Source: Branchiostoma floridae (Eukaryota; Chordata; Leptocardii; Amphioxiformes; Branchiostomatidae). From it: a stretch of DNA of 64,000 nucleotides. The notes under the pieces are model-generated. The model ran no database searches. It saw only the letters and a list, made by a program, of their open reading frames with translations, and was not told the DNA's origin. The stretch spans positions 924,830-988,829 of the forward strand of contig NC_049990.1 of assembly GCF_000003815.2 (NCBI RefSeq), in the 5' to 3' direction. Numbering within the stretch: position 1 is the stretch's first letter; each line of letters starts with the position of its first letter. Below, piece by piece: positions 468 through 48,921 of this stretch. The position numbers and the translations under genes were made by a program.

Positions 468-3396
468 CTACACCACAGTCTCCATTTCAATGACGTCGTG
501 TGGAAGCAGTGCATGTCTCAGTTGCAGCAGCCTCTCTTCTATCCCTTCTGGAGTCGGTCTGGTATCTGGAACGTCGCGCCAACACGACCTCATCAGTCGG
601 TACAGGTCCTCTGGACATTCCGGCGGCCTCTCCAACCGTATGCCTTGCCTCAGAATCCCCACCATCTGAAGAAAGCTCAGCTGCATCCTGCCATCGTAGC
701 ACGGATCTTTCCCCAGCGTGGCGATCTCCCACAGCAGCACGCCGAAGGACCAGACGTCACTCTGACAGGTGTACTCGCCGGTCTCGATGGACTCCAGCGC
801 CATCCACTTCAGCGGAAGGAGTTCGTCAACGCCTGGACGATTGCATCGGACATACTGGGTAGTGGCGTAGACATCTCTGGCCAGTCCAAAGTCAGCCAAC
901 TTGGCCACGTCATCAGCAGTGATGAGGACGTTGCGAGCGGCCACGTCACGATGGGCGATTCTCAAGCGTTCCAGCTCTTGTAGAGCTCGTGCTATGTGGA
1001 CTGCGTATCCAAGAAGGTTTCCAAGTAGGTCTTTCTCGTTGATGTTTCCAATTCGGCGTAGGAAGCCCAAGAAATCTCCTTTAGAGGCATATTCCAAAAG
1101 AATGTACTTCTCCGCAGACTTTGTGATGAGCCCCACAAGTCGAACAATGTTGGACACACGACAATCGCCATCTCGTTGTTGGTGCACAGCTACCAAAATG
1201 GCTGCTTCTCTGTAGAAGTCTCGGTAGGACTGTGAGTCCTCGACGCGAACTGTCTTGGCGGCAACGGCGAGCTCTCCCTCAGGTGTGCGCAGTTTTCCTT
1301 TTCTGACTAGTCCAAACATTCCTTCTCCTATCAGTGGACCAGGAGTAAGATGTTTGATCTTCTTCTCCCAAAGTCCCAGCCAGCCCGGTTGTAGGCTCTG
1401 TGCTAGATCGTGCTCCATTCTCCTCAGCTCGAAAAGTATCTTGTCCTCCTCGCCTGTTTTAGGCGTGGAGCAAGCCAGAATGCTCATTTTGTAGAGTATG
1501 GCCATCACTATGGCAACAAATAAGACTAAGGAGCCCAGTGAGACCAGGATTTCGAGCATCGATTGATCGGCGCTTGTCTGCAACTGGTCACAGTTCCGTC
1601 CCGTCCATGGCGTCACACATGTGCAGCTACCGTCCACATTGCTACATGTAGCATTGTTCTTACAGGCACAAACTTGATGACATCTCCAACCGAACCGACC
1701 GTTTACACATGGTTTGCTACAATTCCTTCCGTACCATCCGGTTTCGCATTCACACCTACCGTCACTAGGGCCACAAGTCGCCCCATTTTGACAGCTGCAG
1801 TTATTTGCACAGTCTTTACCGTACTTGCCATGGGGACATTTTGTCTGACACCTGGTTCCTGTCCATCCCAGCGGACAGACACAACCAGTCCAGCGGTCAC
1901 AGCTGGCACCATGTAGGCAACCACACACTTCATCACACCGGGCACCTTTTGTGTCTGGAGCACAGTTGGTAACATTGAGCACAAACGTGGTGTTGAGTGT
2001 GTTTCCCCGGGTGTCTCGGACCTGGCAGGTGTAGGGCCCGTTGTTGGTAGGTTGTATGTTCGGAACTACAAAGCCTGTCTCATTTACACCAAACCNNNNN
2101 NNNNNNNNNNNNNNNNNNNNNNNNNNNNNNNNNNNNNNNNNNNNNNNNNNNNNNNNNNNNNNNNNNNNNNNNNNNNNNNNNNNNNNNNNNNNNNNCTTTC
2201 TCTGCCTTATTTGGAAATGTAACCGAGATGTATTCATCATCGAAATGGTATGCCTTGCAATGAAACGTAGCATTTGCGGAAATGTAGGTATCGCCAGGGT
2301 CGCTAGGTGTCGTCGTGATGGAGACGTCCTGTTTGGGAATGTCACAAGCCACACCTTTCCAGCCGGGCGGACATTTGCAGGCACCGTTAAACCCATGGCA
2401 GCGGGCGCCGTTCTTACAGATGCAGGTTTTGTCACAAACTAAACCGTATTTTCCAACGGGGCATCCTACCGGATTCGTCCGTATCTCAAGATATTCAACA
2501 TTTGCCATTGGCTTTAATGTTCCATCAGTCTCTACGACTGTTGTTAAGCTGATAGGGTAGCTCGGAACTTCGCAGCTGTAGAGCGTATCTTTTGTTGTAG
2601 GATATTCCAAAGAAACCATTATGAAAAATTGGAGATCTTCATTTTTTAGGACAGAGTCGGGAACAAATTTTCCTAAGTAATTAAGTCTTAACGCGTCGTC
2701 ATATTTCCTGTTCCTGTACAAGTGAAAGGAAATATTGGGTAGTTGAGAATTGGAACTAGGAGTGCATGTTAGTTGACGGAAACCTCTGTCCCATAGCTCC
2801 ATTAAATCTGCCAAATGCGGAATGTATCTAGTGTACGAAACTAAGCGAATGTTACAGTCGCTGTTGTCCATGTGTACCATCCATGGAAGAAGGATTGTTG
2901 AGTTTGTCACTTTGCTGTGTGTCCCACTGCTAAAGAAAACATCTCCGGTTGTCGTCACGAGTTCCCCTGATGTAGTTACACTGTGTAGTAAATCTCCCGT
3001 CTGTCCGTCAGTGTTGACCGGAGTTTCACACGTCTCGTTATACACAGGAGGATAGCCCTCAACGTCACTTAACTCTACCTTAACTCTCGTGTTGTGGACT
3101 CCACTGCGGATTGTCAGCAGATATGCCGACTGTACTGACCTGTCCAGTGGGTTGGCGACCACAATAGTGCAGTTCTTCGTCACATTAAAGCGGCCGTACG
3201 GATCTCCCTCCAGTTTGGCACACGGAAGTTCCGCTTTTTCTCCCGCCCGGGTCCTAGGTAGGCTAAAAACGGTCTCCCCAACCGCGACGTTTTCTGGTAC
3301 GGAAACGCTGAACTCCTGGGCCCGAGCAGAACAAAGAAGCTGGACAAGAACACTCCACAAAGCAACAACAAGCAATCCCTGCAAGTTTCCTGACAT
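468..3396 (-). CDS. RTK-A: single-exon receptor tyrosine kinase (cadherin-like/EGF/Ig/EGF/TM/kinase), interrupted by an N gap
   Basis: Predicted single-pass plasma-membrane receptor tyrosine kinase of about 943 residues. The start is the ATG at 3396, followed by a hydrophobic signal peptide ending near ARAQ. Then come a cadherin-like domain (VPENVAVGE near its start, DVEGYPPVY at its end), a variable region of the type shared with RTK-G, an EGF module (CPVGKYGL...), an Ig-like domain, EGF modules, a membrane helix and the kinase. Kinase landmarks are all present: GEGMFG loop, AAKTV lysine, HRDVAARN, DFG, and the C-terminus ETVV. A 100-N gap (2096-2195) falls in the Ig-like domain. The two halves are in different frames across the 100 Ns, but the intact paralogue RTK-G predicts only 3 missing bases, and a multiple of 3 restores the frame. 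There is no sign of an intron. The ligand is unknown. Confidence 0.85.
2096..2195. other. assembly gap (100 N) inside RTK-A
   Basis: This is a placeholder-length gap. The flanks align with 45345-45370 of RTK-G with only about 3 bases missing, so the gap is mostly nominal. Confidence 0.9.
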
Positions 3397-8991: not shown

Positions 8992-11900
8992 TTATTTAAA
9001 TCCCTGTTTGGTCTCTGTATAGATGTTTGGGTTCGATTCAGTGATGGCCTGAGACTGAACATGATCTTCCTGATTGTTTTGGGGGGTGGGGGCCATATAT
9101 TCACGATGTCTATCATTGCTACCGGTCACTGCAGTAGCTGTGGTGTTTGTGTTAGTCTCAATGACGGCCTGAGACTGGCCCTGCCCTGTCTGATCATGAC
9201 TACTGGTTTCCACAGCAGCTGTGGTGCCCGAGTTGGATTTAATGATGGCCTGAGACTGGCCCTGCCCTGTTTGATCATAACCGCTGGTCACTACAGCAGC
9301 TGTAGTGTTTGTGTTAGTTTCAATGACGGCCTGAGGCTGGCCCTGCTCTGTCTGATCATGACCACTAGTTCCTACAGCAGCTGTGGTGCCCGAGTTGGAT
9401 TTAATGATGGCCTGATACTGGCCCTTAACGTTGTACAAGGAATTCAGCTGTGAGTCAGTCCGCCCTGTGCCATAAGATAGAATACCAGCATCCAAGGATT
9501 CAGTGACAGCTTGAGACTGGCCCTGCCCTGCCTGATCAGAACCACTAGCTTCCACAACAACTGTGGTGTTTGTGTACAAAAAATTAAGCTGCGAGGCAGT
9601 CGGCCCTGAGCCATATGATAGATTTCTAGCATCAAAGGAGTTAGTGATGGCCCCAGGATAACCCTGCCCTGTCTGGCTGTCCATGTTTTTACACTGGTGA
9701 TCATGACCACTGGTCACTACAGTAGCTTTGGTGTTTGTGTTGGATTTAGTAATGGCCTGAGACTGGTCCTGCCCTGTCTGATTGTGTTGAGGGGCCATAT
9801 CTTCATACTCTTGATCTTGGCTACTGGACGGTACAGCATCTGCGGTGTTTGTGTTGGATTGAGTGAAGGACTGAGACTGACCCTGCCCTGTCTGTTTATA
9901 GTCGTGATATTGAATACCGGTCATTTCGGCTTCTTTGGTGTTTGTGTTGGATTCTGTTATGGCCTTAGACTGACCCTGCCCTGTCTGATTGTGTTGTTTG
10001 TCTGCACTAGCTGTTTTGTTTGTGTTCGTTTCAATGACGGCCTGAGACTGGCCCTGCCCTGTCTGATCATGACCACCAGTTCCTACAGTAGCTGCGGTGC
10101 CCGTGTTGGATTTAATGATGGCCTGATACTGGCGCTCAACGTTGTACAAGGAATTAAGCTGTGAGTCAGTCGGCCCTGAGCCATATGATAGATTTCTAGC
10201 ATCAAAGGAGTTAGTGATGGCCCCAGGATAACCCTGCCCTGTCTGGCTGTCCATGTTTTTATACTGGTGATCATGACCACTGGTCACTACTGTAGCTTTG
10301 GGGTTTGTGTTGGATTTATTGATGGACTGAGACTGGCCCTGTCCTGTCTGATTGTGTTGAGGGGCCATATCTTCATACTGTTGATCTTGGCTACTGGCAA
10401 GTACAGCATCTGTGGGGCTTGTGTTGGATTCAGTGATAGCCTGAGACTGGCCCTGTCTTGTCTGATCGCGTTGTTTGTCTACATCTTCATACTGGTGATC
10501 ATCATCCCTGGTCATTAATGCAGCTGTGGTGTTTTTGTTGGATTCTGTGATGGCCTTAGACTGACCCTGCTTTGTATGATTGTGTTGTTTGTCTATATCT
10601 TCATACTGGTGATCATCATCACTGGTCATTAAAGCAGCTGTGGTGTTTGGGTTGGATTGAGTGATGGCCGGAGACTGGCCCTGCCTTTTCTGATTGTGTT
10701 GTTTGTCTATATCTACATACTGGTGATCATGGCCACTGCTTACCACAGCAGATTTGGTGTTTGTGTTTAACTTATTGATGGCCTGAGTCTGGCCCTGCCC
10801 TGTCTGATCGCGTTGTTTGTCAACGTCTTCATACTGGTGATCATGCCCACTGGCCACTACAGCAGCTGTGGTGTGTTTTGTGTTTAACTTAGTGATGGAC
10901 TGAGACTGACCCTGCCTTGTCTGATTGTGTTGTTTGTCTATATCTTCATACTGGTGATCATCATTGGCAACTGCAGTAGCTGTGGTGTTTGTATTGGATT
11001 GAGTGATGGCCTGAGACTGGCCCTGCCTTGTCTGATTGTGTTGTTTGTCTATATCTACATACTGGTGATCATCATCATTGGCAACTACATCAGCTGTATT
11101 GTTTGTGTTTGTGTTTAGCCCTAAAGGAGGATGGCTGGTCCTCCTCTTGCACCAGGTAGTGAGAGTGATGGTGCCAATCAGGACAATGGCAGTTATTGAA
11201 CCACAGATAGTGGCAATGAATACAGCATTGGGTAAATTGGGAGATAATTCATGAGAACTGCGGATATCTGGTTTGTCTGGTGTGATTGCATGGAGGGAAG
11301 GTGGTGTTGCTCTAGCTTGGCTTGTATTGCCTGGAGTTGAACCAGAATCGCCCTTGAAGTACCAGTTACATCGAGAGGTGACAGTGCCATTGGAACTGTT
11401 GTTAGCACTTTGCATTGGACCAATTAGGGACTGTCTGGCAGATGTGGAGTCTTCAGGGCGCGCTGTTGGACCAGCATTGATTAATGTGGTGCCAAACGGA
11501 GAAGATGTTGACCCTGCAGATGACTGGAAGGAAGTTTGGATATCAACAGACAGTGTTGATATGGTTACTCCTTCGCATATCGATCCTTCCAGCATCTGCT
11601 CGTTGTCTACTTTAACCTCTCGTAGCTCGGGGAGATTTACAAATGCACAGGGCTGAATCTCTGTTATCTTATTGGACTCCAGATACAAGTTTCTGAGGCT
11701 GGGTAGGTCTGCAAATGTGCCAGTTCGAATCATTGTTATCTGGTTGCTTATTAGGTTCAACAAATATAGCTGGGACAAATCTGCAAATGTGCTACTTTGA
11801 ATCATTGTTATCTGGTTTGAGGATAGGTCCAGTGTTTCAAGCAGGGGTAACGCTGCAAACAAACCAGGATTGATCTTACTTATCTTGTTGCTGTTCAACA

Positions 11901-12393
11901 ATAAATTTTGGAGTGGGTCTGCAAATGTACCTGCCTGAAGCGTTGTTATTTGATTGAATGACAGGTCGATCTCCCAGAGCTGCGGTAACTCTGCAAACGC
12001 ACCAGGCTCAATCCTTGTAATGTTGTTATGGGACATGATTAACCGTCTTAGCCGGCGTAGACCTGCAAATGTGCCATTCTGAACCATTGTTATCCTGTTT
12101 CGGGCCAAGCACAAAAGTTGGAGATCGTTTAGCTGTACATGTGCAAACGTACCTGCCGGAATATTTGTTATGTTGTTTGAGAACAGGTCCAACCTACTTA
12201 TTCCCCATGTCTTAAGAAATGTGCCTGCCTGAATGTTTGCTATCATGTTATGTAAAGATAAGGGGTTGCCGTATGTGATATTCTGAGGGACGCTGGTGAA
12301 ATCACGCTTGTCTTCACAGAAAGTTTTTGACACGTTGGACTCATTCCAGAGGATGAGAAGAAAGATGAGCACGTGTCGCAGATTTTTCCCCAT
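8992..12393 (-). CDS. LRR-B: single-exon LRR transmembrane receptor with long tyrosine-repeat cytoplasmic tail
   Basis: Predicted type I membrane protein of 1133 residues. It has a hydrophobic leader (about 1-25) and about ten leucine-rich repeats (about 45-262) of the form LxxLxLxxNxIxxIxxGTFAxL. A Cys-containing cap follows, then a Ser/Thr-rich linker (276-388), a membrane helix (about 390-413) with a CKRR stop-transfer, and a cytoplasmic tail of about 718 residues. The tail is made of degenerate units of about 35-40 residues, rich in Gln, Asn and Thr, typically reading HQYEDIDKQHNQT...QGQSQAITESNTN. It carries many tyrosine motifs: YEDI, YVDI, YEDV, YEDM, YKNM, YQAI. YxxM is the known PI3-kinase p85 SH2 motif and YEDI resembles Src-family SH2 ligands. 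One unit has lost its tyrosine (QCKNM). No TIR or kinase domain is present. Function is not established; a receptor or adhesion molecule with a phospho-scaffold tail is inferred. Confidence 0.85.
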   Translation of the reverse strand: MGKNLRHVLIFLLILWNESNVSKTFCEDKRDFTSVPQNITYGNPLSLHNMIANIQAGTFLKTWGISRLDLFSNNITNIPAGTFAHVQLNDLQLLCLARNRITMVQNGTFAGLRRLRRLIMSHNNITRIEPGAFAELPQLWEIDLSFNQITTLQAGTFADPLQNLLLNSNKISKINPGLFAALPLLETLDLSSNQITMIQSSTFADLSQLYLLNLISNQITMIRTGTFADLPSLRNLYLESNKITEIQPCAFVNLPELREVKVDNEQMLEGSICEGVTISTLSVDIQTSFQSSAGSTSSPFGTTLINAGPTARPEDSTSARQSLIGPMQSANNSSNGTVTSRCNWYFKGDSGSTPGNTSQARATPPSLHAITPDKPDIRSSHELSPNLPNAVFIATICGSITAIVLIGTITLTTWCKRRTSHPPLGLNTNTNNTADVVANDDDHQYVDIDKQHNQTRQGQSQAITQSNTNTTATAVANDDHQYEDIDKQHNQTRQGQSQSITKLNTKHTTAAVVASGHDHQYEDVDKQRDQTGQGQTQAINKLNTNTKSAVVSSGHDHQYVDIDKQHNQKRQGQSPAITQSNPNTTAALMTSDDDHQYEDIDKQHNHTKQGQSKAITESNKNTTAALMTRDDDHQYEDVDKQRDQTRQGQSQAITESNTSPTDAVLASSQDQQYEDMAPQHNQTGQGQSQSINKSNTNPKATVVTSGHDHQYKNMDSQTGQGYPGAITNSFDARNLSYGSGPTDSQLNSLYNVERQYQAIIKSNTGTAATVGTGGHDQTGQGQSQAVIETNTNKTASADKQHNQTGQGQSKAITESNTNTKEAEMTGIQYHDYKQTGQGQSQSFTQSNTNTADAVPSSSQDQEYEDMAPQHNQTGQDQSQAITKSNTNTKATVVTSGHDHQCKNMDSQTGQGYPGAITNSFDARNLSYGSGPTASQLNFLYTNTTVVVEASGSDQAGQGQSQAVTESLDAGILSYGTGRTDSQLNSLYNVKGQYQAIIKSNSGTTAAVGTSGHDQTEQGQPQAVIETNTNTTAAVVTSGYDQTGQGQSQAIIKSNSGTTAAVETSSHDQTGQGQSQAVIETNTNTTATAVTGSNDRHREYMAPTPQNNQEDHVQSQAITESNPNIYTETKQGFK

Positions 12394-15098: not shown

Positions 15099-15445
15099 GT
15101 AGGGTGCGGCCGTCGGTAGCTGGTCCGTAATGGCTCAGGCTGTTGTTGTGTAGGGTGCGGCCGTCGGTAGCTGGTCCGTGATGGCTCAGGCTGTTGTTGT
15201 GTAGGGTGCGGCCGTCGGTAGCTGGTCCGTAATGGCTCAGGCTGTTGTTGTGTAGGGTGCGGCCGCCGGTAGCTGGTCCGTGATGGCTCAGGCTGTTGTT
15301 GTGCAGGGTGCGACCGTCGGTAGCTGGTCCGTGATGGCCCAAGCTGTTGTTGTGTAGGGTGCGGCCGTCGGTAGCTGGTCCGTAATGCCCCAGGCTGTTG
15401 TTGTGTAGGGTGCGGCCGCCGGTAGCTGGTCCGTAATGTCGTGTG
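15099..15445. repeat. 51-bp minisatellite, unit 1, about 7 copies
   Basis: Tandem repeat with an exact 51-base period, monomers starting GGTGCGGCCGTCGGTAGCTG at 15103, 15154, 15205, 15256, 15307, 15358 and 15409. Since 51 is 17 codons, the minus strand is open through the array (repeat GPATDGRTLHNNSLSHH). Protein expression is not shown. Sister arrays are at 30105 and 42729. Confidence 0.95.
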
Positions 15446-17256: not shown

Positions 17257-20191
17257 CTACACCACAGTCTCCATTTCAATGACGTCATGTGGAAGCAGTG
17301 CACGTCTCAAGTGCAGCAGCCTCTCTTCTATCCCTTCCGGAGTCGGTCTGGTATCTGGAACGTCGCGCCAACACGACCTCATCAGTCGGTACAGGTCCTC
17401 TGGACATCCCGGCGGCCTCTCCAACCGTATTCCTTGCCTCAGAATCCCCACCATCTGAAGAAAGCTCAGCTGCATCCTGCCATCGTAGCACGGATCTTTC
17501 CCCAGCGTGGCGATCTCCCACAGCAGCACACCGAAGGACCAGACGTCACTCTGACAGGTGTACTCGCCGTTCTCGATGGACTCCAGCGCCATCCACTTCA
17601 GCGGAAGAAGTTCGTCAACGCCTGGACGGTTGCATCGGACATACTGAGTAGTGGCGTAGACATCTCTGGCCAGTCCAAAGTCAGCCAACTTGGCCACGTC
17701 ATCGGCAGTGATGAGGACGTCGCGAGCAGCCACGTCACGATGGGCGATTCTCAAGCGTTCCAGCTCTTGTAGGGCTCGTGGTATGTGGACTGCGTAGCCA
17801 AGAATGTTTCCAAGTAGGTCTTTCTCGTTGATGTTCCCAAATCGTCGTAGCAAACCCAAGATATCTCCTTTGGAGGCATATTCCAAAAGAATGTACTTAT
17901 CCGCAGACGTGGTGATGAGCCACTACAAGTCGAACAATGTTGGACTCACGGCANNNNNNNNNNNNNNNNNNNNNNNNNNNNNNNNNNNNNNNNNNNNNNN
18001 NNNNNNNNNNNNNNNNNNNNNNNNNNNNNNNNNNNNNNNNNNNNNNNNNNNNNCATCCCGTTGTTGGTGCACAGCTACCAAAATGGCTGCTTCTCTGTAG
18101 AAGTCTCGGTAGGACTGTGAGTCCTCGACGCGAACTGTCTTGGCGGCAACGGCGAGCTCTCCCTCAAATGTGCGCAGTTTTCCTTTTCTGACTAGTCCAA
18201 ACATTCCTTCTCCTATCAGTGGACCAGGAGTAAGATGTTTGATCTTCTTCTCCCAACGTCCCAGCCAGCCCGGCTGTAGGCTCTGTGCTAGATCCTGCTC
18301 CATTTTCCTCAGTTCGAAAAGTATCTTGTCCTCCTCGCCTGTGTCAGGTGCGGAGCAAGCCAGAATGCCCGTTTTGTAGAGTATTGCCATCACTATGGCA
18401 ACAAGGACGACTAAGGAGCCTAGTGAAACCAGGATTTCGAGCAGCGGTTCATCTCTGCTTGTCTGCCATTGGTCACAGTCCGGCCCCGTCCATGGCGTCA
18501 CACATGCGCAGCTGCCATCCACGTTGCTACATGTAGCGTTATTCTTACAGGTACAAATCTGCTGACATCTCCAACCGAACCGACCGTTTTTACACTGTTT
18601 GCTACAATCCTTACCGTACCACCCGTCGGTGCACTCACACGTACCATCGCTAGAGCTACAACTCGCCCCATTTTGACATGTACAGTTCCTTTCACAGTCT
18701 TTACCGTACTTGCCATGGCGACATTTTGTATGACACCTGATTCCTGTCCATCCCGGCGGACAGACACAACCAGCCCAACGGTCACAGCTGGCACCTTGTA
18801 GGCAACCACACACTTCATCACACCGAGCACCTTTTGTGTCAGGAGCACAGTTGGTAACATTGAGCACAAACGTGGTGTTGAGTGTGTTTCCCCGGGTGTC
18901 TCGGACCTGGCAGGTGTAGGGTCCACTGTTGGTTGGTTGTATTTTCGAAACCTCAAAGTCAGTCTCATTTACACCAAATGTAACTTTCGTTGTCACATTT
19001 TGAAAGGTTATTGACACGGACCTAACCTCGATATGGTGTGCCTTGCAATGAAACGTGATATTTGCGGAAATGTAGATATCGCGAGGATCGCTAGGTGTCG
19101 TCGTGACGGAGACGTCCTGTTTGGGAATGTCACAGGCCACACCTTTCCAACCGGGCGGACATTTGCAGGCACCGTTAAACCCGTGGCAGCGGGCGCCGTT
19201 CTTACAGATGCAGGTTTTGTGGCAAAGTAACCCGTATTTTCCAACTGGGCAGCCCACTGGTTTTATTTGTATGTCCAGGTATTCAACATATGATATCTTT
19301 CGGGTGTTCTGATTCTCATAATATATTCGTATTGGAGTGCGAAACTGGGGAATTTCACACTTGTATGACATTGCTTCTCTTGTAGGAATCGTCCCGGAAG
19401 CCAACATTATGAAGTTGAAATGCTTGGCGTTCACGACGGATTCAGGAACATACTTTCTTAAATGTTTAAGAATAGCCTTTCCGCCATATTTAAGATTAAA
19501 CAAGTCCCAAGACCTATTTTGGGCAAGTAAGCCCGCAGTGCAGGTTAGCTGATGAATGCCATTGTGCCAGAGATCTTGCAATAATGTTAAGTCTTCGATA
19601 TTGGCCAATATTTGACGGCCTAAAGCGAATGTTGCAATCACTGTTGTGTGTGTGAAACATCCAAATATTAGTTTTCCAGTCGGTAGGGCGGAGTAATCCA
19701 GTGACTGAATTGAAAATTTGTTTTGCAAACACAATGTCTCCTTCTGTTGTTACTCCTTCCCCAGCGCTAGTTACACTATAAAGGAAATCTCCTGTCTCGC
19801 CGTTCCAGTTGACCGGAGTTTCACACGTCGCGTTATACACAGGAGGATAGCCCTCAACGTCACTTAACTCTACCTTAACTCTCGTGTTGTGGACTCCACT
19901 GCGGATTGTCAGCAGATATGCCGACTGTACTGACCTGTCCAGTGGGTTGGCGACCACAATAGTGCAGTTCTTCGTCACATTAAAACGGCCGTACGGATCT
20001 CCCTCCATTTTGGCACACGAAAGTTCCGCTTTTTCTCCCGCCCGGGTCCTTGGTAGGCTGAAAACGGTCTCCCCAACAGCGACGTTTTCTGGTACGGAAA
20101 CGCTGAACTCCTGGGCCCGAGCAGAACAAAGAAGCTGGACAAGAACACTCCACAAAGCAACAACAAGCAATCCCTGCAAGTTTCCTGACAT
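17257..20191 (-). pseudogene. RTK-C: damaged paralogue of the RTK family
   Basis: The full domain order of RTK-E is recognisable (signal peptide from the ATG at 20191, cadherin-like domain, type-2 variable region, EGF, Ig-like, EGFs, membrane helix, kinase), but the reading frame is broken. Near 19600-19622 a patch differs from RTK-E by a net +4 bases and shifts the frame. Near 17915-17925 an extra A relative to RTK-G shifts it again, just beside the gap at 17954. Near 19500-19535 small indels cancel out, changing a few residues. In addition the catalytic-loop Asn is changed: HRDVAARD here against HRDVAARN in all sisters (AAC to GAC), removing a Mg-binding residue. One lesion sits at a contig end and could be a sequencing error; the internal one and the Asp change are harder to dismiss. 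Confidence 0.65.
17954..18053. other. assembly gap (100 N) in the RTK-C kinase domain
   Basis: Placeholder gap. Comparison with RTK-G (44405-44435) predicts only about 5 missing bases. Confidence 0.85.
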
Positions 20192-25473: not shown

Positions 25474-28092
25474 TCAATGACGGGACTGGCCCTGCCCTGT
25501 CTGATCATGACTACTGGTTCCTACAGCAGCTGCTGTGCCCGAGTTGGATTTAATAATGGCCTGATATTGGCCCTCAACGTTGTACAAGGAATTAAGCTGT
25601 GAGGCAGTCGGCCCTGTGCCATAAGATAGATTTCTAGCATCAAAGGAGTTAGTGATGGCCACAGGATAACCCTGCCCTGTCTGGCTGTCCATATTCTCAT
25701 ACTGGTGATCATGACCACTGGTCACTACAGTAGCTTTGGTGTTTGTGTTGGATTTAGTGATGGCCTGAGACTGGTCCTGCCCTGTCTGATTATGCTGAGG
25801 GGCCATATCTTCATACTGGTGATCAAGACCACTGGATACTGCAGTAGCTGTGGTGTTTGTGTTAGTTTCAATGATGGCGTGAGACTGAACCTGCCCAGTC
25901 TGATCATGACCACTGGTTCCCACAGCAGCTGTGGTGCCCGAGTTGGATTTAATAATGGGCTGATACTGGCGCTCAACGTTGTACAAGGAATTTAGCTGTG
26001 AGGCAGTCGGCCCTGTGCCATAAGATAGAATACCAGCATCCAAGGATTCAGTGACAGCCTGAGACTGGCCCTGCCCTGCCTGATCAGAACCACTAGCTTC
26101 CTCAGCAGCTGTGGTGTTTGTGTACAAGGAATTAAGCTGTGAGTCAGTCGGCACTGAGTCATATGATAGATTTCTAGCATCAAAGGAGTTAGTGAAGGCC
26201 TGAGGATTATCCTGCCCTGTCTGGCTGTCCATGTTTTTATACTGGTGATCATGACCACTGGTCACTACTGTAGCTTTGGAGTTTGTGTTGGATTCAGTGA
26301 TGGCCTGAGACTGGCCCCGCCCTGTCTGATTGTGTTGAGGGGCCATATATTCATACTGTTGATCTTGGCTACTGGCCGGTACAGCATCTGTGGGGCTTGT
26401 GTTGGATTCAGTGATAGCCTGAGACTGGCCCTGTCTTGTCTGATCGCGTTGTTTGTCTACATCTTCATACTGGTGATCATCATCACTGGTCATTAATGCA
26501 GCTGTGGTGTTTTTGTTGGATTCTGCGATAGCCTTAGACTGACCCTGCTTTGTATGATTGTGTTGTTTGTCTATATCTTCATACTGGTGATCATCATCAC
26601 TGGTCATTAAAGCAGCTGTGGTGTTTGTGTTGGATTCTGTGATGGACTGAGACTGGCCCTGCCTTGTCTGATCATGACCCTTGTTTTCATTCTGGCCACT
26701 TGTCATGACGGAAACTGATGTGTATGTGTTGCTACTAATAGTATTGTGATTTAGCCCTAGAGGAGGATGGCTGGTCCTCCTCTTGCACCAGGTGGTGAGA
26801 GTGATGGTGCCAATCAGGACAATGGCAGTTATTGAACCACAGATAGTGGCAATGAAAACAGCATTGGCTAACTTGGGAGATAATTCATGAGAACTGCGGA
26901 TTTCTGGTTTGTCTGGTGTGATTGCAAGGAGGGAAGGTGGTGTTGCTCTAGCTTGGCTTGTATTGCCTGCAGAACCTGTAGTTGAACCAGAATCGCGCTT
27001 GAAGTACCAGTGATAGCGAGAGGTGACGGTTCCATTGTAACTGTTGTTAGCACTTTTCATTGGGCCAAAAGAGGACTGTGTGGCAAATGTGAAGGCTTCA
27101 GGGCGCGCTGTTGGACCAGCATTGATTAATGTGCTGCCAAACGGAGAAGATGTTGACACTGGAGATGACTGGAAGGGGGTTTGGATATCAACAGACAGTG
27201 TTGATATGGTTCGTTCTTCACATATCGATCCTTCCAGCATCTGCTTGTCGTCTACGTATACGTTAACCTCTCGTAGCTGTGGTAGATTTACAAATGCACA
27301 GGGCTGAATCTCTGTTATCTTATTGGACTCCAGATACAAGTTTCTGAGGCTGGGTAGGTCTGCAAATGTGCCAGTTCGAATCATTGTTATCTGGTTGGAG
27401 TCTAGGTCCAACGTAAAGAGCTCCGGCAACTCTGCAAATGTGCTAGTTCGAATCATTGTTATCTGGTTGGAGGACAGGATTAGTATTTGAAGCCGGGGTA
27501 ACTCTGCAAACACACCAGGATCGATCTTAGCTATCTTGTTGTTGTTCATCGATAACTTTAAGAGACCGGGTGTGTCTGCAAATGTACCTGCCTGAATCGT
27601 TGTTATCTGATTGAATGACAGGTCGATAAAGCCGAGATGGGGTAACTCTGCAAACGCACCCGGCTCAATCCTTGTTATGTTGTTATGGGCCATGTATAAC
27701 CATTCTAGCCGACATAGACCTGCAAATGTGCCATTCTGAATCATTGTTATGCTGTTGCGGGACAAGCACAAAGAAGAGAGATTGTATAGCGGTGCAAATG
27801 TACCTGCAGGTATATTTGTTATGTGGTTGGATAACAGGTCCAACCTATTTATTCTGCTCAGCTTAACAAATGCATCGGGCTGAATCTTTGTCATCAAGTT
27901 ATGTTGCAAAGATAAGAGTTCGCCATGTTCAATATTCTGAGGGATGCTGGTGAAACCACGCTTGCTCCAACACCCCGGTTGGTCTGGTCGGCAAGTATGA
28001 GAGTCTCTACAGAAAGCTTCTGACACGTTGGACTCATTCAGGAGGAGGAGAAGAAAGATCAGCACGTGACGCAGCTTTTTCCACATGGTCAT
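25474..28092 (-). CDS. LRR-D: single-exon LRR transmembrane receptor with tyrosine-repeat tail, truncated by frameshift
   Basis: Predicted membrane receptor of 872 residues with the layout of LRR-B: leader, about ten LRRs, cap, Ser/Thr linker, membrane helix with CKRR, repeat tail. The homologous start in LRR-B and LRR-F corresponds to the second ATG (28086); the first ATG adds two residues. The N-terminus before the LRRs is longer than in its sisters and has four extra Cys (CRDSHTCRPDQPGC region), a fuller LRR N-cap. The LRRs are more diverged from B and F than those two are from each other. The tail carries YEDI, YEDV, YEYM, YKNM, YEDM, YENM and YQAI. It ends early at SRH because of a 5-base deletion. 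Confidence 0.8.
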   Translation of the reverse strand: MTMWKKLRHVLIFLLLLLNESNVSEAFCRDSHTCRPDQPGCWSKRGFTSIPQNIEHGELLSLQHNLMTKIQPDAFVKLSRINRLDLLSNHITNIPAGTFAPLYNLSSLCLSRNSITMIQNGTFAGLCRLEWLYMAHNNITRIEPGAFAELPHLGFIDLSFNQITTIQAGTFADTPGLLKLSMNNNKIAKIDPGVFAELPRLQILILSSNQITMIRTSTFAELPELFTLDLDSNQITMIRTGTFADLPSLRNLYLESNKITEIQPCAFVNLPQLREVNVYVDDKQMLEGSICEERTISTLSVDIQTPFQSSPVSTSSPFGSTLINAGPTARPEAFTFATQSSFGPMKSANNSYNGTVTSRYHWYFKRDSGSTTGSAGNTSQARATPPSLLAITPDKPEIRSSHELSPKLANAVFIATICGSITAIVLIGTITLTTWCKRRTSHPPLGLNHNTISSNTYTSVSVMTSGQNENKGHDQTRQGQSQSITESNTNTTAALMTSDDDHQYEDIDKQHNHTKQGQSKAIAESNKNTTAALMTSDDDHQYEDVDKQRDQTRQGQSQAITESNTSPTDAVPASSQDQQYEYMAPQHNQTGRGQSQAITESNTNSKATVVTSGHDHQYKNMDSQTGQDNPQAFTNSFDARNLSYDSVPTDSQLNSLYTNTTAAEEASGSDQAGQGQSQAVTESLDAGILSYGTGPTASQLNSLYNVERQYQPIIKSNSGTTAAVGTSGHDQTGQVQSHAIIETNTNTTATAVSSGLDHQYEDMAPQHNQTGQDQSQAITKSNTNTKATVVTSGHDHQYENMDSQTGQGYPVAITNSFDARNLSYGTGPTASQLNSLYNVEGQYQAIIKSNSGTAAAVGTSSHDQTGQGQSRH

Positions 28093-31289: not shown

Positions 31290-34115
31290 CTACACCACGG
31301 TCTCCATTTCAATGACGTCATGTGGGAGCAGTGCACGTCTCAGTTGCAGCAGCCTCTCTTCTATCCCTTCTGGAGTCGGTCTGGTATCTGGAACGTCGCG
31401 CCAACACGACCTCATCAGTCCGTACAGGTCCTCTGGACATCCCGGCGGCCTCTCCAACCGTATTCCTTGCCTCAGAATCCCCACCATCTGAAGAAAGCTC
31501 AGCTGCATCCTGCCATCGTAGCACGGATCTTTCCCCAGCGTGGCGATCTCCCACAGCAGCACACCGAAGGACCAGACGTCACTCTGACAGGTGTACTCGC
31601 CGTTCTCGATGGACTCCAGCGCCATCCACTTCAGCGGAAGAAGTTCGTCAACGCCTGGACGGTTGCATCGGACATACTGAGTAGTGGCGTAGACATCTCT
31701 GGCCAGTCCAAAGTCAGCCAACTTGGCCACGTCATCGGCAGTGATGAGGACGTTGCGAGCAGCCACGTCACGATGGGCGATTCTCAAGCGTTCCAGCTCT
31801 TGTAGAGCTCGTGCTATGTGGACTGCGTATCCAAGAAGGTTTCCAAGTTTGTCTTCTTCAGTAGTGATTCTTATTCGGCATAGAACACTCAAGAGGTCAC
31901 CTTTGGGTGCATATTCCAGAAGAATGTACTTCTCCGCAGACTTGGTGATGAGCCCCACGAGTCGAACAATGTTGGACTCACGATAATCGCCATCTCGTTC
32001 TTTGTGCACAGCTACCAAAATGGCTGCTTCTCTGTAGAAGTCTCGGTAGGACTGTGAGTCCTCGACGCGAACTGTCTTAGCGGTAACGGCAAGCTCTCCC
32101 TCAGGTGTGCGCAGTTTTCCTTTTCTGACTAGTCCAAACATTCCTTCTCCTATCAGTGGACCAGGAGTAAGATGTTTGATCTTCTTCTCCCAACGTCCCA
32201 GCCAGCCCGGCTTTAGGCTCTGTGCTAGATCCTGCTCCATTCTCCTCAGCTCGAAAAGTATCTTGTCTTCCTCGTCTGTGTCGGGCGCGGAGCAAGCCAG
32301 AATACCTGTTTTGTAGAGTATTGCCATCACTATGGCAACAAGTAAAACTAAGGAGCCCAGTGAAACCAGGATTTCGAGCAATGCCAGTGGTTCATCTCTG
32401 CTCGTCTGCCATTGGTCACAGTTCTGTCCCGTCCATGGCGTCACACATGCGCAGATACCGTCCACGTTGCTACATGTAGCGTTATTCTTACAGGTACAAA
32501 CCTGCTGACATCTCCAACCGAACCGACCGTTTTTACACGGTTTGCTACAATCCTTACCGTACCACCCGTCGGTGCAGTCACACGTACCATCGCTAGGGCT
32601 ACAGCTCGCCCCATTTAGACAGGTACAATTCCTTGCACAGTCTTGACCGTACGTGCCATTGGGACATTTTTTCTGACACCATCCCGGTGGACAGACACAA
32701 CCAGCCCAGCGGTCACAGCTGGCACCTTGTAGGCAACCACACACTTCATCACACCGAGCACCTTTTGTGTCTGGAGCACAGTTGGTAACATTGAGCACAA
32801 ACGTGGTGTTGAGTGTGTTTCCCCGGGTGTCTCGGACCTGGCAAGTGTACGGTCCGCTGTTGGTTGGTTGTATGTTCGAAACCTCAAAGTCAGTCTCATT
32901 TACACCAAATGTAACTTTCGTTGTCACATTTTGAAATGTTATTGACATGGACCTAACCTCGACATGGTGTGCCTTGCAATGAAACGTGATATTTGCGGAA
33001 ATGTAGATATCGCGAGGATCGCTAGGTGTCGTCGTGATGGAGACGTCCTGTTTGGGAATGTCACAGGCCACACCTTTCCAGCCGGGCGGACATTTGCAGG
33101 CACCGTTAAACCCGTGGCAGCGGGCGCCGTTCTTACAGATGCAGGTTTTGTGGCAAAGTAACCCGTATTTTCCAACGGGGCAGCCCACTGGTTTTATTTG
33201 TATGTCCAGGCCAATGGCCAATGATATCTTTCGGGTGTTCTGATTCTCATAATATATTCGTATTGGAGTGCGAAACTGGGGAATTTCACACTTGTATGAC
33301 ATTGGTTCTCTTGTAGGAATCGTCCCGTAAGCCAACATTATGAAGTTGAAATGCTTGGCGTTCACGACGGATTCAGGAACATACTTTCTTAACTGTTCAA
33401 GACTAGCCTTTCCGCCATATTTAAGATTAAACAAGTCCGAGACTATTTTGGGCAAGTAAGCCGCAGTGCAGGTTAGCTGATGAATGCCATTGTGCCAGAG
33501 ATCTTGCAATAATGTTAAGTCTTCGATATTGTCAGTTTTGATGGCTATGCGAATGTTGCAATCACTGTTGTGTGTGTGAAACATCCAAATATTAGTTTTC
33601 CAGTCGGTAGGGCGGAATAATCCAGTGACTGAATTGAAAATTTGTTTTGCAAACACAATGTCTCCTTCTGTTGTTACTCCTTCCCCAGCGCTAGTTACAC
33701 TATAAAGGAAATCTCCTGTCTCACCGTTCCAGTTGACCGGAGTTTCACACGTCGCATTATACACAGGAGGATAGCCCTCAACGTCACTTAACTCTACCTT
33801 AACTCTCGTGTTGTGGACTCCACTGCGGATTGTCAGCAGATATGCCGACTGTACTGACCTGTCCAGTGGGTTGGCGACCACAATAGTGAAGTTCTTGGTC
33901 ACATTAAAGCGGCCGTACGGATCTCCCTCCATTTTGGCACACGGAAGTTCCGCTTTTTCTCCAGCCCGGGTCCTTGGTAGGCTGAAAACGGTCTCCCCAA
34001 CAGCGACGTTTTCTGGTACGGAAACGCTGAACTCCTGGGCCCGAGCAGAACAAAGAAGCTGGACAAGAACACACCACAAAGCAACAACACGCAATCCCTG
34101 CAAGTTTCCTGACAT
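31290..34115 (-). CDS. RTK-E: intact single-exon receptor tyrosine kinase (reference copy)
   Basis: 941-residue receptor with no gap or break. Order: signal peptide 1-27; cadherin-like domain 28-120 (VPENVAVGE at 33-41, ANPLDRS at 81-87, DVEGYPPVY at 111-119); variable region 121-309; EGF 312-351; Ig-like 355-444 (Cys380, Cys425); EGF-like modules 446-566; membrane helix about 579-601; kinase about 648-927. Kinase landmarks are GEGMFG 656-661, Lys680, HRD 781-783, Asn788, DFG 801-803 and activation-loop Tyr809 and Tyr814. The C-terminus ETVV fits a class I PDZ ligand. All catalytic residues are present, so it is predicted active at the plasma membrane. Relative to its sisters, one EGF lacks four residues (12-base in-frame deletion near 32680). 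The variable region matches RTK-C, not A or G. I recognise no vertebrate orthologue; the cadherin-like domain recalls RET, but EGF plus Ig recalls Tie. Confidence 0.9.
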   Translation of the reverse strand: MSGNLQGLRVVALWCVLVQLLCSARAQEFSVSVPENVAVGETVFSLPRTRAGEKAELPCAKMEGDPYGRFNVTKNFTIVVANPLDRSVQSAYLLTIRSGVHNTRVKVELSDVEGYPPVYNATCETPVNWNGETGDFLYSVTSAGEGVTTEGDIVFAKQIFNSVTGLFRPTDWKTNIWMFHTHNSDCNIRIAIKTDNIEDLTLLQDLWHNGIHQLTCTAAYLPKIVSDLFNLKYGGKASLEQLRKYVPESVVNAKHFNFIMLAYGTIPTREPMSYKCEIPQFRTPIRIYYENQNTRKISLAIGLDIQIKPVGCPVGKYGLLCHKTCICKNGARCHGFNGACKCPPGWKGVACDIPKQDVSITTTPSDPRDIYISANITFHCKAHHVEVRSMSITFQNVTTKVTFGVNETDFEVSNIQPTNSGPYTCQVRDTRGNTLNTTFVLNVTNCAPDTKGARCDEVCGCLQGASCDRWAGCVCPPGWCQKKCPNGTYGQDCARNCTCLNGASCSPSDGTCDCTDGWYGKDCSKPCKNGRFGWRCQQVCTCKNNATCSNVDGICACVTPWTGQNCDQWQTSRDEPLALLEILVSLGSLVLLVAIVMAILYKTGILACSAPDTDEEDKILFELRRMEQDLAQSLKPGWLGRWEKKIKHLTPGPLIGEGMFGLVRKGKLRTPEGELAVTAKTVRVEDSQSYRDFYREAAILVAVHKERDGDYRESNIVRLVGLITKSAEKYILLEYAPKGDLLSVLCRIRITTEEDKLGNLLGYAVHIARALQELERLRIAHRDVAARNVLITADDVAKLADFGLARDVYATTQYVRCNRPGVDELLPLKWMALESIENGEYTCQSDVWSFGVLLWEIATLGKDPCYDGRMQLSFLQMVGILRQGIRLERPPGCPEDLYGLMRSCWRDVPDTRPTPEGIEERLLQLRRALLPHDVIEMETVV

Positions 34116-38049: not shown

Positions 38050-40935
38050 TCAGTGATGGCCTGAGACTGAAACTGATCTGCCTGATTGTTTTGGGGGTGG
38101 GGTGGGGGGCATATATTCATGATGTCTATCATTGCTACTGGTCACTGCAGTAGCTATGGTGTTTGTGTTAGTTTCAATGACGGCCTGATACTGGTACTGC
38201 CCAGTCTGATCATGACCACTGGTTCCTACAGCAGCTGCTGTGCCCGAGTTGGATTTAATAATGGCCTGATACTGGCCCTCAACGTTGTACAAGGAATTAA
38301 GCTGTGAGTCAGTCGGCCCTGTGTCATATGATAGATTTCTAGCATCAAATGAGTTAGTGTTGGCCTGAGGATGATCCTGCCATGTCTGGCCGTCCATATT
38401 CTCATATTGGTTATAATGACCACTGGCCACTACTGTAGCTGTTGGGTTTGTATTGGATTTAGTGATGGCCTGAGACTGACCCTGCCCTGTCTGATTGTGT
38501 TGAGGGGCCATATATTCATACTGTTGATCTTGGCTACTGGCCGGTACAACATCTGTGGTGTTTGCGTTGGATTCAGTGACGGCGTGAGACTGGCCCTGCC
38601 TTGTCTGATTGTGTTGTTTGTCTACATCTTCATACTGGTGATCATTACCACTCAATACTGCAGTAGCTGTGGTGTTTGTGTTAGTTTCATTAGACCGAAC
38701 CTGCCCAGTCTGGTCATGACCACTAGTTCCCACCGCAGCTGTGGTGCCCGAGTTGGATTTAATAATGGGCTGATACTGGCCCTCAACGTTGTACAAGGAA
38801 TTCAACAGTGAGGCAGTCGGCCCTAAGCCATATGATAGATTTCTAGCATCAAAGGATTTAGTGACAGCCTGAGACTGGCCCTGCCCTGCCTGATCAGAAC
38901 CACTAGCTTCCACAGCAGCTGTGGTGTTTGTGTACAAAGAATTAAGCTGCGAGGCAGTCGGCCCTGAGCCATATGATAGATTTCTAGCATCAAAGGAGTT
39001 AGTGAAGGCCTGAGGATTATCCTGCCCTGTCTGGCTGTCCATGTTTTTATACTGGTGATCATGACCACTGGTCACTACTGTAGCTTTTGGGTTTGTGTTG
39101 GATTTATTGATGGCCTGAGACTGGCCCCGCCCTGTCTGATTGTGTTGAGGGGCCATATCTTTATACTGGTGATCATGACCACTGGCCACTACTGTAGCTT
39201 TTGGGTTTGTGTTGGATTCAGTGATGGCCTGAGACTGGCCCTGCCCTGTCTGATTGTGTTGAGGGGCCATATATTCATACTGTTGATCTTGGCTACTGGC
39301 CGGTACAGCATCTGTGGGGCTTGTGTTGGATTCAGTGATAGCCTGAGACTGGCCCTGTCTTGTCTGATCGCGTTGTTTGTCTACATCTTCATACTGGTGA
39401 TCATCATCACTGGTCATTAATGCAGCTGCGGTGTTTTTGTTGGATTCTGTGATGGCCTTAGACTGACCCTGCTTTGTATGATTGTGTTGTTTGTCTATAT
39501 CTTCATACTGGTGATCATCATCACTGGTCATTAAAGCAGCTGTGGTGTTTGGGTTGGATTCTGTGATGGCCTGAGACTGGCCCTGCCTTGTCTGATCATG
39601 ACCCTTGTTTTCATTCTGGCCACTTGTCATGACGGAAACTGATGTGTATGTGTTGCTACTAACAGTATTGTGATGTAGCCCTAGAGGAGGATGGCTGGTC
39701 CTCCTCTTGCACCAGGTAGTGAGAATGATGGTGCCAATCAGGACAATGGCAGTTATTGAACCACAGATAGTGGCAATGAAAACAGCATTGGCTAACTTGG
39801 GAGATAATTCATGAGAACTGCGGATATCTGGTTTGTCTAGTGTGATTGCAAGGAGGGAAGGTGGTGTTGCTCTAGCTTGGCTTGTATTGCCTGTAGTTGA
39901 ACCAGAATCGCGCTTGAAGTACCAGTTACATCGAGAGGTGACAGTGCCATTGGAACTGTTGTTAGCACTTTGCATTGGACCAATTAGGGACTGTGTGGCA
40001 GATGTGGAGGCTTCAGCATTGATTAATGTGGTGCCAAACGGAGAAGATGTTGACCCTACAGATGACTGGAAGGAAGTTTGGATATCAACAGACAGTGTTG
40101 ATATGGTTACTCCTTCGCATATCGATCCTTCCAGCATCTGCTTTTTGTCTACTTTAACCTCTCGTACCTCGGGTAGATTTACAAATGCACAGGTCTGAAT
40201 CTCTGTTATCTGATTGGACTTCAGATACAAGGTTTGGAGGCTGGGAAGGTCTGCAAATGTGCCAGTTCGAATCATTGTTATCTGGTTGCTTATTAGGTTC
40301 AACAAATATAGCTGGGGCAAATCTGCAAATGTGCTAGTTTGAATCATTGTTATCTGGTTTGAGGATAGGTCCAGTGTTTCTAGCAGGGGTAACGCTGCAA
40401 ACAAACCAGGATTGATCTTACTTATCTTGTTGCTGTTCAACAATAAATTTTGGAGTGGGTCTGCAAATGTACCTGCCTGAAGCGTTGTTATTTGATTGAA
40501 TGACAGGTCGATCTCCCAGAGCTGCGGTAACTCTGCAAACGCACCAGGCTCGATCCTTGTAATCTTGTTATGGGACATGATTAGCCTTCTTAGCCGGCGT
40601 AGACCTGCAAATGTGCCATTCTGAATCATTGTTATTCTGTTGCGGGCCAAGCACAAAAGTTGGAGATCGTATAGCTGTACATGTGCAAATGTACCTGCCG
40701 GAATATTTGTTATGTTGTTTGAGAACAGGTCCAACCTACTTATTCCCCATGTCTTAAGAAATGTGCCTGCCTGAATGTTTGCTATCAAGTTATGTAAAGA
40801 TAAGGGGTTGCCGTATGTGATATTCTGAGGGACGCTGGTGAAATCACGCTTGTCTTCACAGAAAGTTTCTGACACGTTGGACTCATTCCAGAGGATGAGA
40901 AGAAAGATGAGCACGTGTCGCAGCTTTTTCCCCAT
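38050..40935 (-). CDS. LRR-F: single-exon LRR transmembrane receptor with tyrosine-repeat tail
   Basis: Predicted 961-residue receptor, closest to LRR-B over the leader and LRRs (most repeats differ by only a few residues). It has a leader, about ten LRRs, a cap, a Ser/Thr linker somewhat shorter than in B, a membrane helix with CKRR, then the repeat tail. Just after the helix it shares with LRR-D, not B, the segment HHNTVSSNTYTSVSVMTSGQ, so the copy is a B/D mosaic. Tail motifs include YEDI, YEDV, YEYM, YKDM, YKNM and YENM. The end differs from B: a G/C-rich run at 38091-38109 has a different length, so F reads KQSGRSVSVSGHH and stops where B continues about 20 residues in another frame. Confidence 0.85.
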   Translation of the reverse strand: MGKKLRHVLIFLLILWNESNVSETFCEDKRDFTSVPQNITYGNPLSLHNLIANIQAGTFLKTWGISRLDLFSNNITNIPAGTFAHVQLYDLQLLCLARNRITMIQNGTFAGLRRLRRLIMSHNKITRIEPGAFAELPQLWEIDLSFNQITTLQAGTFADPLQNLLLNSNKISKINPGLFAALPLLETLDLSSNQITMIQTSTFADLPQLYLLNLISNQITMIRTGTFADLPSLQTLYLKSNQITEIQTCAFVNLPEVREVKVDKKQMLEGSICEGVTISTLSVDIQTSFQSSVGSTSSPFGTTLINAEASTSATQSLIGPMQSANNSSNGTVTSRCNWYFKRDSGSTTGNTSQARATPPSLLAITLDKPDIRSSHELSPKLANAVFIATICGSITAIVLIGTIILTTWCKRRTSHPPLGLHHNTVSSNTYTSVSVMTSGQNENKGHDQTRQGQSQAITESNPNTTAALMTSDDDHQYEDIDKQHNHTKQGQSKAITESNKNTAAALMTSDDDHQYEDVDKQRDQTRQGQSQAITESNTSPTDAVPASSQDQQYEYMAPQHNQTGQGQSQAITESNTNPKATVVASGHDHQYKDMAPQHNQTGRGQSQAINKSNTNPKATVVTSGHDHQYKNMDSQTGQDNPQAFTNSFDARNLSYGSGPTASQLNSLYTNTTAAVEASGSDQAGQGQSQAVTKSFDARNLSYGLGPTASLLNSLYNVEGQYQPIIKSNSGTTAAVGTSGHDQTGQVRSNETNTNTTATAVLSGNDHQYEDVDKQHNQTRQGQSHAVTESNANTTDVVPASSQDQQYEYMAPQHNQTGQGQSQAITKSNTNPTATVVASGHYNQYENMDGQTWQDHPQANTNSFDARNLSYDTGPTDSQLNSLYNVEGQYQAIIKSNSGTAAAVGTSGHDQTGQYQYQAVIETNTNTIATAVTSSNDRHHEYMPPTPPPKQSGRSVSVSGHH

Positions 40936-46700: not shown

Positions 46701-46855
46701 CCGGCCTGGGTCCCTTGTAGGCTGAAAATGGTCTCCCCAACAGCGACGTTTTCTGGTACGGAAACGCTGAACTCCTGGGCCCCAGCAGAACAAAGAAGGT
46801 TGACAGAAACAACCAAGAAACATACAGCAAGTATTCCCTTCATGTTTACTGCCAT
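43726..46855 (-). CDS. RTK-G: single-exon receptor tyrosine kinase, split only by an assembly artefact
   Basis: The same receptor architecture as RTK-E, with the variable region of the RTK-A type. The two halves are interrupted by 235 N, but the 56 bases left of the gap (45845-45900) are repeated exactly right of it (46137-46192). Overlapping contig ends were therefore left unmerged. Joining 45900 to 46193 keeps one frame and gives 945 residues from the ATG at 46855, or 941 from the ATG at 46843, equal to RTK-E. I prefer these starts over the upstream ATG at 47008 because the signal peptide (KGILAVCFLVVSVNLL) begins right after 46843 and the upstream stretch is charged. The kinase is complete: GEGMFG, Lys, HRDVAARN, DFG, C-terminal ETVV. 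The signal-peptide region and 5' flank differ from A, C and E. Confidence 0.85.
45901..46135. other. spurious assembly gap (235 N) in RTK-G
   Basis: Flanked by an exact 56-base direct repeat, which fits a contig overlap that was scaffolded rather than joined. No sequence needs to be missing. Confidence 0.85.
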
Positions 46856-48831: not shown

Positions 48832-48838
48832 TGTATAA
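48832..48838 (+). promoter_or_regulatory. TATA box candidate for RTK-H
   Basis: TATAAAA lies 90 bases before the chosen ATG (48922), leaving room for a transcription start about 30 bases downstream and a 5' UTR of about 60 bases. No promoter assay exists here. Confidence 0.5.
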
Positions 48839-48921
48839 AAACACGACCATATAAGGAAGTTAGTCAGATCTTCAGGCAGGCAAACTTCTGGCGAGTACAT
48901 AGGAAAAACGTCCAACAAAAC

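Follow-up and report, generated by a model that had tools for sequence, protein, structure and literature searches.

Tandem arrays of putative phosphotyrosine docking sites in the tails of diversifying single-pass LRR receptors of Branchiostoma floridae

Background

Amphioxus stands beside the vertebrates without possessing their lymphocyte receptors, and for this reason the way in which its many recognition receptors signal is a question. A window of 64,000 nucleotides (C12:924830-988829), the whole stretch of DNA analysed here, gives this question a concrete form as it holds LRR receptor genes whose tails are built of repeated units carrying tyrosine motifs. Are these motifs working sites or relics of the repeat? 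YxxM is the docking motif of PI3-kinase p85 and YEDI lies near the preference of Src-family SH2 domains, and a preliminary description of the locus had accordingly proposed that the tails behave like a docking scaffold. NPxY, for its part, is a PTB-type docking motif. Our analysis leads us to favour, with reasonable though not firm confidence, the reading that the tails are tandem arrays of putative phosphotyrosine docking sites on diversifying single-pass LRR receptors, the long tails probably acting as phosphorylation-controlled docking strips.

Results

Organisation of the locus and topology of the receptors

Three intact LRR genes (LRR-B, LRR-D and LRR-F) alternate on the minus strand with receptor tyrosine kinase (RTK) genes (Table 1). 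This LRR/RTK array spans positions 8992-45900 of the window and is found also at C12:633-728 kb, C12:898-976 kb and C15:4105-4114 kb, its genes reading as uninterrupted ORFs where intact and alternating as a segmental array. The same 51-bp minisatellite occurs once per duplicated segment (15096-15438, 30103-30548 and 42726-42966). Past the end of the LRR-D ORF unit-like sequence continues in another frame at 25014-25373 (-) and past that of LRR-F similarity to the end of LRR-B continues in another frame at 38007-38102 (-), each change of frame being either a real shortening or an assembly error. The window also contains a CCTAAC/CCTAGC tract, a telomere-like interstitial repeat, at 59544-59729 and, at about 7140-7570 (+), what looks by eye like a remnant of a non-LTR retrotransposon, namely the C-terminal part of its reverse transcriptase.

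Table 1 Features of the window, in window positions
Feature	Position	Strand	Remarks	Basis
RTK copy 1	468..3396	-	assembly gap inside	
LRR-B ORF	8992-12393	-	1133 aa; gene intact	
LRR-B cytoplasmic tail	8992..11151	-	719 residues, 24 Tyr, 11 YxxPhi	topology and unit profile
LRR-B 27-residue units without Tyr block	9157..9399	-	residues 999-1079	unit profile and TRF
LRR-B eight contiguous Tyr-bearing units	10210..11112	-	residues 428-728	motif-masked profile
LRR-B TM segment	11152..11235	-	residues 387 to 414/415, then CKRR stop-transfer	Kyte-Doolittle
LRR-B LRR ectodomain	11539..12315	-	residues ~27-285	Pfam LRR_8 and others
LRR-B putative signal peptide	12316..12393	-	residues ~1-26, MGKNLRHVLIFLLILW...	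read from translation
RTK copy 2	17257..20191	-	assembly gap, change of frame	
LRR-D gene	25474-28092	-	intact	
LRR-D cytoplasmic tail	25474..26787	-	437 residues, 10 YxxPhi	
RTK	31290..34115	-	Ig domain, EGF-like cysteine repeats (by eye), kinase	Pfam
LRR-F gene	38050-40935	-	intact	
LRR-F cytoplasmic tail	38050..39711	-	553 residues, 12 YxxPhi	
RTK copy 4	43726..46855	-	assembly gap	
RTK copy 5	48811..51615	+	opposite strand; one Tyr in C-tail	

The LRR proteins of the window share a hydrophobic start, LRRs (Pfam LRR_8 on the LRR-B ORF, E 3.4e-45), a Ser/Thr-rich stalk, a single TM segment and CKRR, and the hydrophobic start of LRR-B is also present in the nine paralogs compared. The TM segment of LRR-B has a Kyte-Doolittle peak of 2.34 and no other stretch of the protein exceeds 1.6. 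Because a hydrophobic start is followed by one TM segment and then by CKRR, the genes fit type I single-pass LRR receptors with the tail predicted to lie inside the cell, and the cytoplasmic topology claimed for LRR-B thus holds; an extracellular tail was rejected on the same grounds. N-glycosylation sequons in the tails (17 in LRR-B, 9 in LRR-D and 14 in LRR-F against 13, 8 and 10 expected from composition) occur at a density like that of the ectodomain and therefore favour neither side of the membrane.

The tails are of low complexity and rich in Q, N, S and T. No Pfam family matched them above its cut-off, with Metallophos_2 (20.2 bits against a cut-off of 27) and Phage_DNA_bind (16.4 bits against 25) judged to be chance matches, and no solved structure matched them at E 0.1. 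The preliminary description had placed the LRR-B tail and its repeated units correctly: its 719 residues consist mostly of 38-residue units typified by SNTNTTAALMTSDDDHQYEDIDKQHNQTRQGQSQAITE, seen by TRF as a period of 114 bp at 10261-11109, and in the eight contiguous units the motifs run YVDI, YEDI, YEDV, YVDI, YEDI, YEDV, YEDM, YKNM. In a second, 27-residue type (TRF period 81 bp at 9160-9425) the HQYEDIDKQHN block is absent, and a third type of 33 residues carries SYGSG, LYNVE and QYQAI. All six motifs previously named in LRR-B were found (YVDI, YEDI, YEDV, YEDM and YQAI twice each, YKNM once), and in one unit Cys replaces Tyr.

Tyrosines with a hydrophobic +3 residue are enriched in the tails genome-wide

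In the window tails the residue three positions after tyrosine is I, L, V or M at 11 of 24 tyrosines in LRR-B, 10 of 17 in LRR-D and 12 of 23 in LRR-F, against a background of about 0.12 for these residues (binomial P 4e-5, 8e-6 and 3e-6, values that are inflated because the units are copies of each other). The earlier statement that in LRR-D and LRR-F the tyrosine motifs persist amid drift of the remaining residues was too strong, since Asp-3, Gln-1, Gln+6 and Thr+10 are as conserved as the tyrosine among the window units and many units are without the motif.

The same LRR proteins recur across the genome (513 Mb in 431 contigs searched), with at least 184 matches to the proteins and at least 144 when the tail alone served as query. 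From 36 fetched loci and the three window genes we obtained 36 readable tails of more than 50 residues, so that at least 36 such tails exist in the genome. This set includes two ORFs covering part of a gene (L011 and L016); outside it are L018 and L029, without a usable ORF (more than 100 X or fewer than 400 aa), L026, whose tail has 15 aa, and L045-L048, which were read and left uncounted. Four further tail matches were fetched and all four were LRR proteins, none of them placing the tail on a non-LRR ectodomain.

Across the 36 tails 316 of the 519 tyrosines with full +3 context are followed by I, L, V or M (61%; background 14.4%) while shuffled tails gave 75.2 such sites (SD 8.1, maximum 97). 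Every tail has at least one YxxPhi site (range 1 to 17, median 9), with L040 and L042 having one apiece. YxxM, present 3, 4 and 5 times in LRR-B, LRR-D and LRR-F, totals 69 across 25 of the 36 tails as against 9.5 in shuffles, and YxxP lies below chance (8 against 18). The hydrophobic +3 recurs in contexts as unlike as QYEDI, QYQAI, PLYKVV, NPMYAGV and EYMSL, and the paralogs add the motifs NPMY, YMSL and YKVV. NPxY occurs 57 times in 23 of the 36 tails, all of them paralogs, and 0 times in the three window tails. In the tail of L036 (C18:13298500-13304500) we observed 11 NPxY, about nine of them in a near-identical tandem array NPMYAAVGSPSHDQTSTVMTGGHDQTGKGQSQTTIQSLNVENLSHNEVLAALKP, a PTB/endocytosis-type motif standing in place of YEDI.

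Classical immunoreceptor motifs are scarce in these 36 tails, with 0 ITAMs (YxxL/I x6-12 YxxL/I; the median spacing is 38), 0 ITSMs and strict ITIMs ([IVL]xYxx[LV]) at chance level, 5 against 5.7 in shuffles, the one match in the window being in LRR-D. The broad ITIM shows a modest excess (24 against 14.1 shuffled, maximum 22) outside the main unit of the window, and in all of the 226 main units aligned below the -2 residue is H, Q, N, R or Y and never I, V, L or S. The same units surround the tyrosine with acidic residues (Asp-3 in 199, Glu+1 in 196, Asp+2 in 178), a context that is typical of Src-family substrates.

A codon-level test of constraint on the array

A rival explanation of this enrichment is that the tail is a disordered spacer grown by tandem duplication, with non-working tyrosine motifs inherited from the ancestral unit. 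The motifs are indeed copies of a few ancestral units, Tyr-less 27-residue units have been amplified too, for example in L040, and the window data taken alone are compatible with neutrality: total pN/pS among window units is 0.90, 26 units show 3 non-synonymous changes at the Tyr column where the mean per column is 3.5, and the codon test on these 26 units, two C-terminal ones aligned by hand, gave no significant constraint, having too few changes. A first +3 result from the window was circular because the unit pattern itself fixed Tyr/Cys and I/V/M at +3. Since the changes were too few the window-only test was replaced by a genome-wide one, using a unit profile in which the seven motif columns were masked so that units were found independently of the motif. 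This profile yielded 371 matches, the Tyr column being gapped in 92 and the block present in 247, of which 226 from 34 tails were retained after curation; the 21 dropped comprised the first, membrane-proximal unit of a tail in 10 cases, 8 rows belonging to another repeat type, 1 gapped row and 2 in which a one-residue gap displaced the tyrosine from its column. Changes were counted by parsimony on a tree and compared with mutational opportunity, a count that is noisy on short repeats, between units that are not independent and have likely undergone gene conversion.

Tyrosine is retained in 195 of the 226 units and the +3 residue is I, M, V or L in 217 (188 of the 195 with Tyr), being Ile, Met or Val in 214 and Leu in 3. 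At the Tyr column 0.62 of the expected non-synonymous changes were found, which ranks it 8-9 of 38 columns (P 0.046-0.056 depending on the tree), and a similarly mild constraint is seen at Gln-1, Glu+1 and Asp-3; several non-Tyr columns are equally slow or slower, as the neutral account would have it. A unit anchored by its tyrosine alone, as the preliminary description had implied, is therefore not supported. Nor is the +3 codon slow, as it ranks 36 or 20 of 38, a rate that would count as a refutation under the literal criterion of the preliminary description; what is held at this position is the chemical class only. Changes from a hydrophobic +3 residue ended in another hydrophobic residue in 44 of 50 cases against 64% expected (P 1.7e-4), whereas the control hydrophobic columns -9, -8 and +18 behaved neutrally with 47 of 82 staying hydrophobic (Fisher P 1.4e-4 against +3).

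This excess persisted, if more weakly, on other trees (P 0.002-0.04). On the whole-unit tree +3 stayed hydrophobic in 23 of 29 changes (P 0.016; Fisher 0.018), and on a tree built without the tested and control columns in 32 of 38 as against 75 of 119 in the controls (P 0.010), with 6 second-base changes at +3 and 17, 14 and 20 at the controls. With the uncurated 247 rows the outcome was unchanged (P 0.002). When each of the 34 genes was omitted in turn P ranged over 0.002-0.037, and when every gene was limited to three units (97 in all) it ranged over 0.0003-0.106, with 7 of the 10 draws below 0.05.

Because the hydrophobic class of +3 is held while the control columns drift, the array appears to be under weak selection for Y-x-x-hydrophobic, a selection that would be spread over the array and not act on every unit. 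Many single tyrosine sites are dispensable: Tyr is lost in 31 of the 226 units, 21 of these being without Tyr at +2, and L025 has His or Asn at the Tyr position in seven of 14 units. In the sister genes L019 and L043 His replaces Tyr in all nine units that carry the block (6 and 3), and another Tyr follows two positions later with Leu at +3 from it (EYMSL), a motif that was re-registered, probably in one event. Together with the recurrence of YxxPhi in several unlike contexts and with tails in the C12 cluster whose paralogs average a dN/dS of 0.61 and keep open frames over hundreds of codons, the fate of the +3 class argues against the neutral account, which we consider unlikely.

The ectodomains diversify and have histories apart from those of the tails

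We compared nine C12 paralogs, comprising LRR-B, LRR-D, LRR-F and six more. Concave positions of the LRRs are changed in 33 of 40 codons as against 88 of 210 other codons of the LRR region (P 1.8e-6), and the concave face has undergone 58 non-synonymous and 8 synonymous events (omega ~2.4, P 0.008 for the excess over neutral, an estimate open to inflation by gene conversion) where the LRR core positions have 3 and 10 (omega 0.13). The concave face is hypervariable and the core constrained, as expected of diversifying recognition, and the outward recognition surface thus diversifies as immune receptors do. Over the LRR region as a whole dN/dS is near 1 in most cross-lineage pairs and 0.44-0.58 in the closest pairs. 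LRR-B and LRR-F have their ectodomain in common (dS 0.05) and differ in the tail (0.28), LRR-D and LRR-F have the tail in common (0.095) and differ in the ectodomain (0.185), and the halves have therefore been exchanged.

A sorting array and other readings of the motif

YxxPhi is also the consensus of the AP-2/AP-3 adaptors, which favour Leu at +3, and the tails might accordingly bind AP-2/AP-3 mu or, through NPxY, endocytic PTB adaptors independently of phosphotyrosine. That they do so we regard as improbable, and equally that the array would drive internalisation or lysosomal targeting. The NPxY sites of the paralogs suit this reading and the acidic x residues recall AP-3 signals, but acidic residues at +1 and +2 are atypical for AP-2, the window tails have no NPxY, Leu is all but missing at +3 beside Ile, Met and Val, and 10-17 copies are left unexplained because one sorting signal normally suffices. 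The LC3-interacting motif, Y-x-x-[ILV] near acids, is disfavoured with Met at +3 in 74 of the 226 units.

The neighbouring receptor tyrosine kinases

The RTK at 31290..34115 matched Pfam PK_Tyr_Ser-Thr (E 2.1e-63) with Ig_3 just under the cut-off, and it has no tyrosine in its juxtamembrane region or C-tail. The same is true of the juxtamembrane region in five of five RTKs of the window and of the C-tail in three of the four that are readable. The C-tail of copy 5 reads LPYDVIEM (51568-51615 +) where the other three have LPHDVIEM, a possible gained tyrosine site.

Kinase-substrate pairing of adjoining RTK and LRR genes is possible. It would take its strongest form if the interleaved RTKs were dedicated to phosphorylating the adjoining LRR receptors, which would supply in trans the docking sites that the kinases lack; the alternation of the genes, the tyrosine-free kinase regions and the presence of an RTK copy within 6 kb of 10 of the 11 LRR loci in the C12/C15 group are in keeping with such a pair. 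Against it, none of the 28 other fetched LRR loci has an RTK within 15 kb among the at least 52 RTK matches listed, and the RTK clusters on C7, C8, C1 and C17 have no LRR neighbour among these matches. As tandem duplication of one ancestral pair suffices for the alternation, we think a dedicated pair very unlikely. RTK matches number dozens in the genome (at least 52), many of them full-length open frames.

A broader reading joins the two halves of the receptor in a germline-diversified system in which they vary independently, with the LRR face under diversifying selection and the tail an evolvable docking barcode, written in the number and kind of YEDI, YEDM, YKNM, NPMY and YMSL sites, that is swapped from receptor to receptor close to the membrane. 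In one cluster the RTKs, amplified along with the receptors and devoid of docking sites, would serve as dedicated kinases. In this full form we offer it as speculation with the odds well against it.

Discussion

The docking-array reading draws on the topology, the YxxPhi enrichment, the hydrophobicity held at +3 and the precedent of BbLcLRR, an inhibitory amphioxus LRR receptor, and the scaffold first proposed for LRR-B is partly supported on these points, though without the tyrosine as the fixed point of the unit. The receptor would become clustered when its diversifying LRR surface binds a ligand, and a Src-family or receptor tyrosine kinase might then phosphorylate the DHQ-Y-[EVK]-[DN]-[IVM] sites, in the way that Lck phosphorylates BbLcLRR. 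Several copies of SH2 proteins could then gather, the candidates being Src-family and p85-like, with PTB proteins as candidate partners at the NPxY sites of paralogs. Selection on the array would keep up a supply of YxxPhi sites and not each unit, so that tandem duplication may add, remove and re-register units. The putative signal may be activating, through p85- and Src-like sites, or inhibitory.

If the tails are docking arrays, a single genome provides dozens of naturally varying tails, differing in valency, spacing and type of motif beneath related ectodomains, with which the workings of multivalent phosphotyrosine scaffolds could readily be tested, together with a hint that the ITIM-like LRR signalling of BbLcLRR is part of a much larger system. 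Testing YxxPhi for constraint is a cheap and general means of separating sites that work from relics of the repeat.

Comparison with known systems

A search of the open-access literature found no description of these tandem tyrosine-motif arrays. Multi-site docking proteins such as p130Cas (YxxP), IRS-1 (YxxM) and the Gab family carry numerous repeated SH2 sites along a disordered region, as the tails here would; they are cytosolic adaptors, however, whereas the array here forms the tail of an LRR receptor that spans the membrane, and YxxP, the motif of p130Cas, is depleted in it. The ITIM, ITSM and ITAM immunoreceptors resemble the window proteins in joining a recognition ectodomain to tyrosine motifs with an aliphatic +3, but differ in the motifs themselves, given the lack of ITAMs and ITSMs and the chance-level strict ITIMs in the 36 tails. 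CD28-type tails carry YMNM, in which Asn+2 is Grb2-like and Met+3 p85-like, and YKNM and YENM combine the same two residues, though here in some units only and beneath an LRR ectodomain instead of an Ig one.

PMC10199209 deals with Grb2 and an LRR protein that is GPI-anchored. Closer is BbLcLRR of Branchiostoma belcheri, a Lck-associated inhibitory LRR receptor of 699 aa with three mapped tyrosines and a WSC domain, whose tail tyrosines, according to the accessible part of its report, are phosphorylated by Lck, with SHIP1 and SHP1/2 associating after TCR stimulation in Jurkat cells (PMC8211107). Like the window proteins it is an amphioxus single-pass LRR receptor with no kinase of its own and with cytoplasmic tyrosines followed by a hydrophobic +3 (DDYATV, HDYSEV), the LRR ectodomain, single TM segment and such tail tyrosines all being present in the window. 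The two are set apart by their descriptions, as the part of the report available describes no tandem array for BbLcLRR while the window tails have 10-12 sites in 38-residue repeats, and by the WSC domain, for which LRR-B, LRR-D and LRR-F have no Pfam match at E 0.001. The closest published system is thus an amphioxus LRR receptor with a Lck-phosphorylated tail, of which the receptors described here present a large multi-site form.
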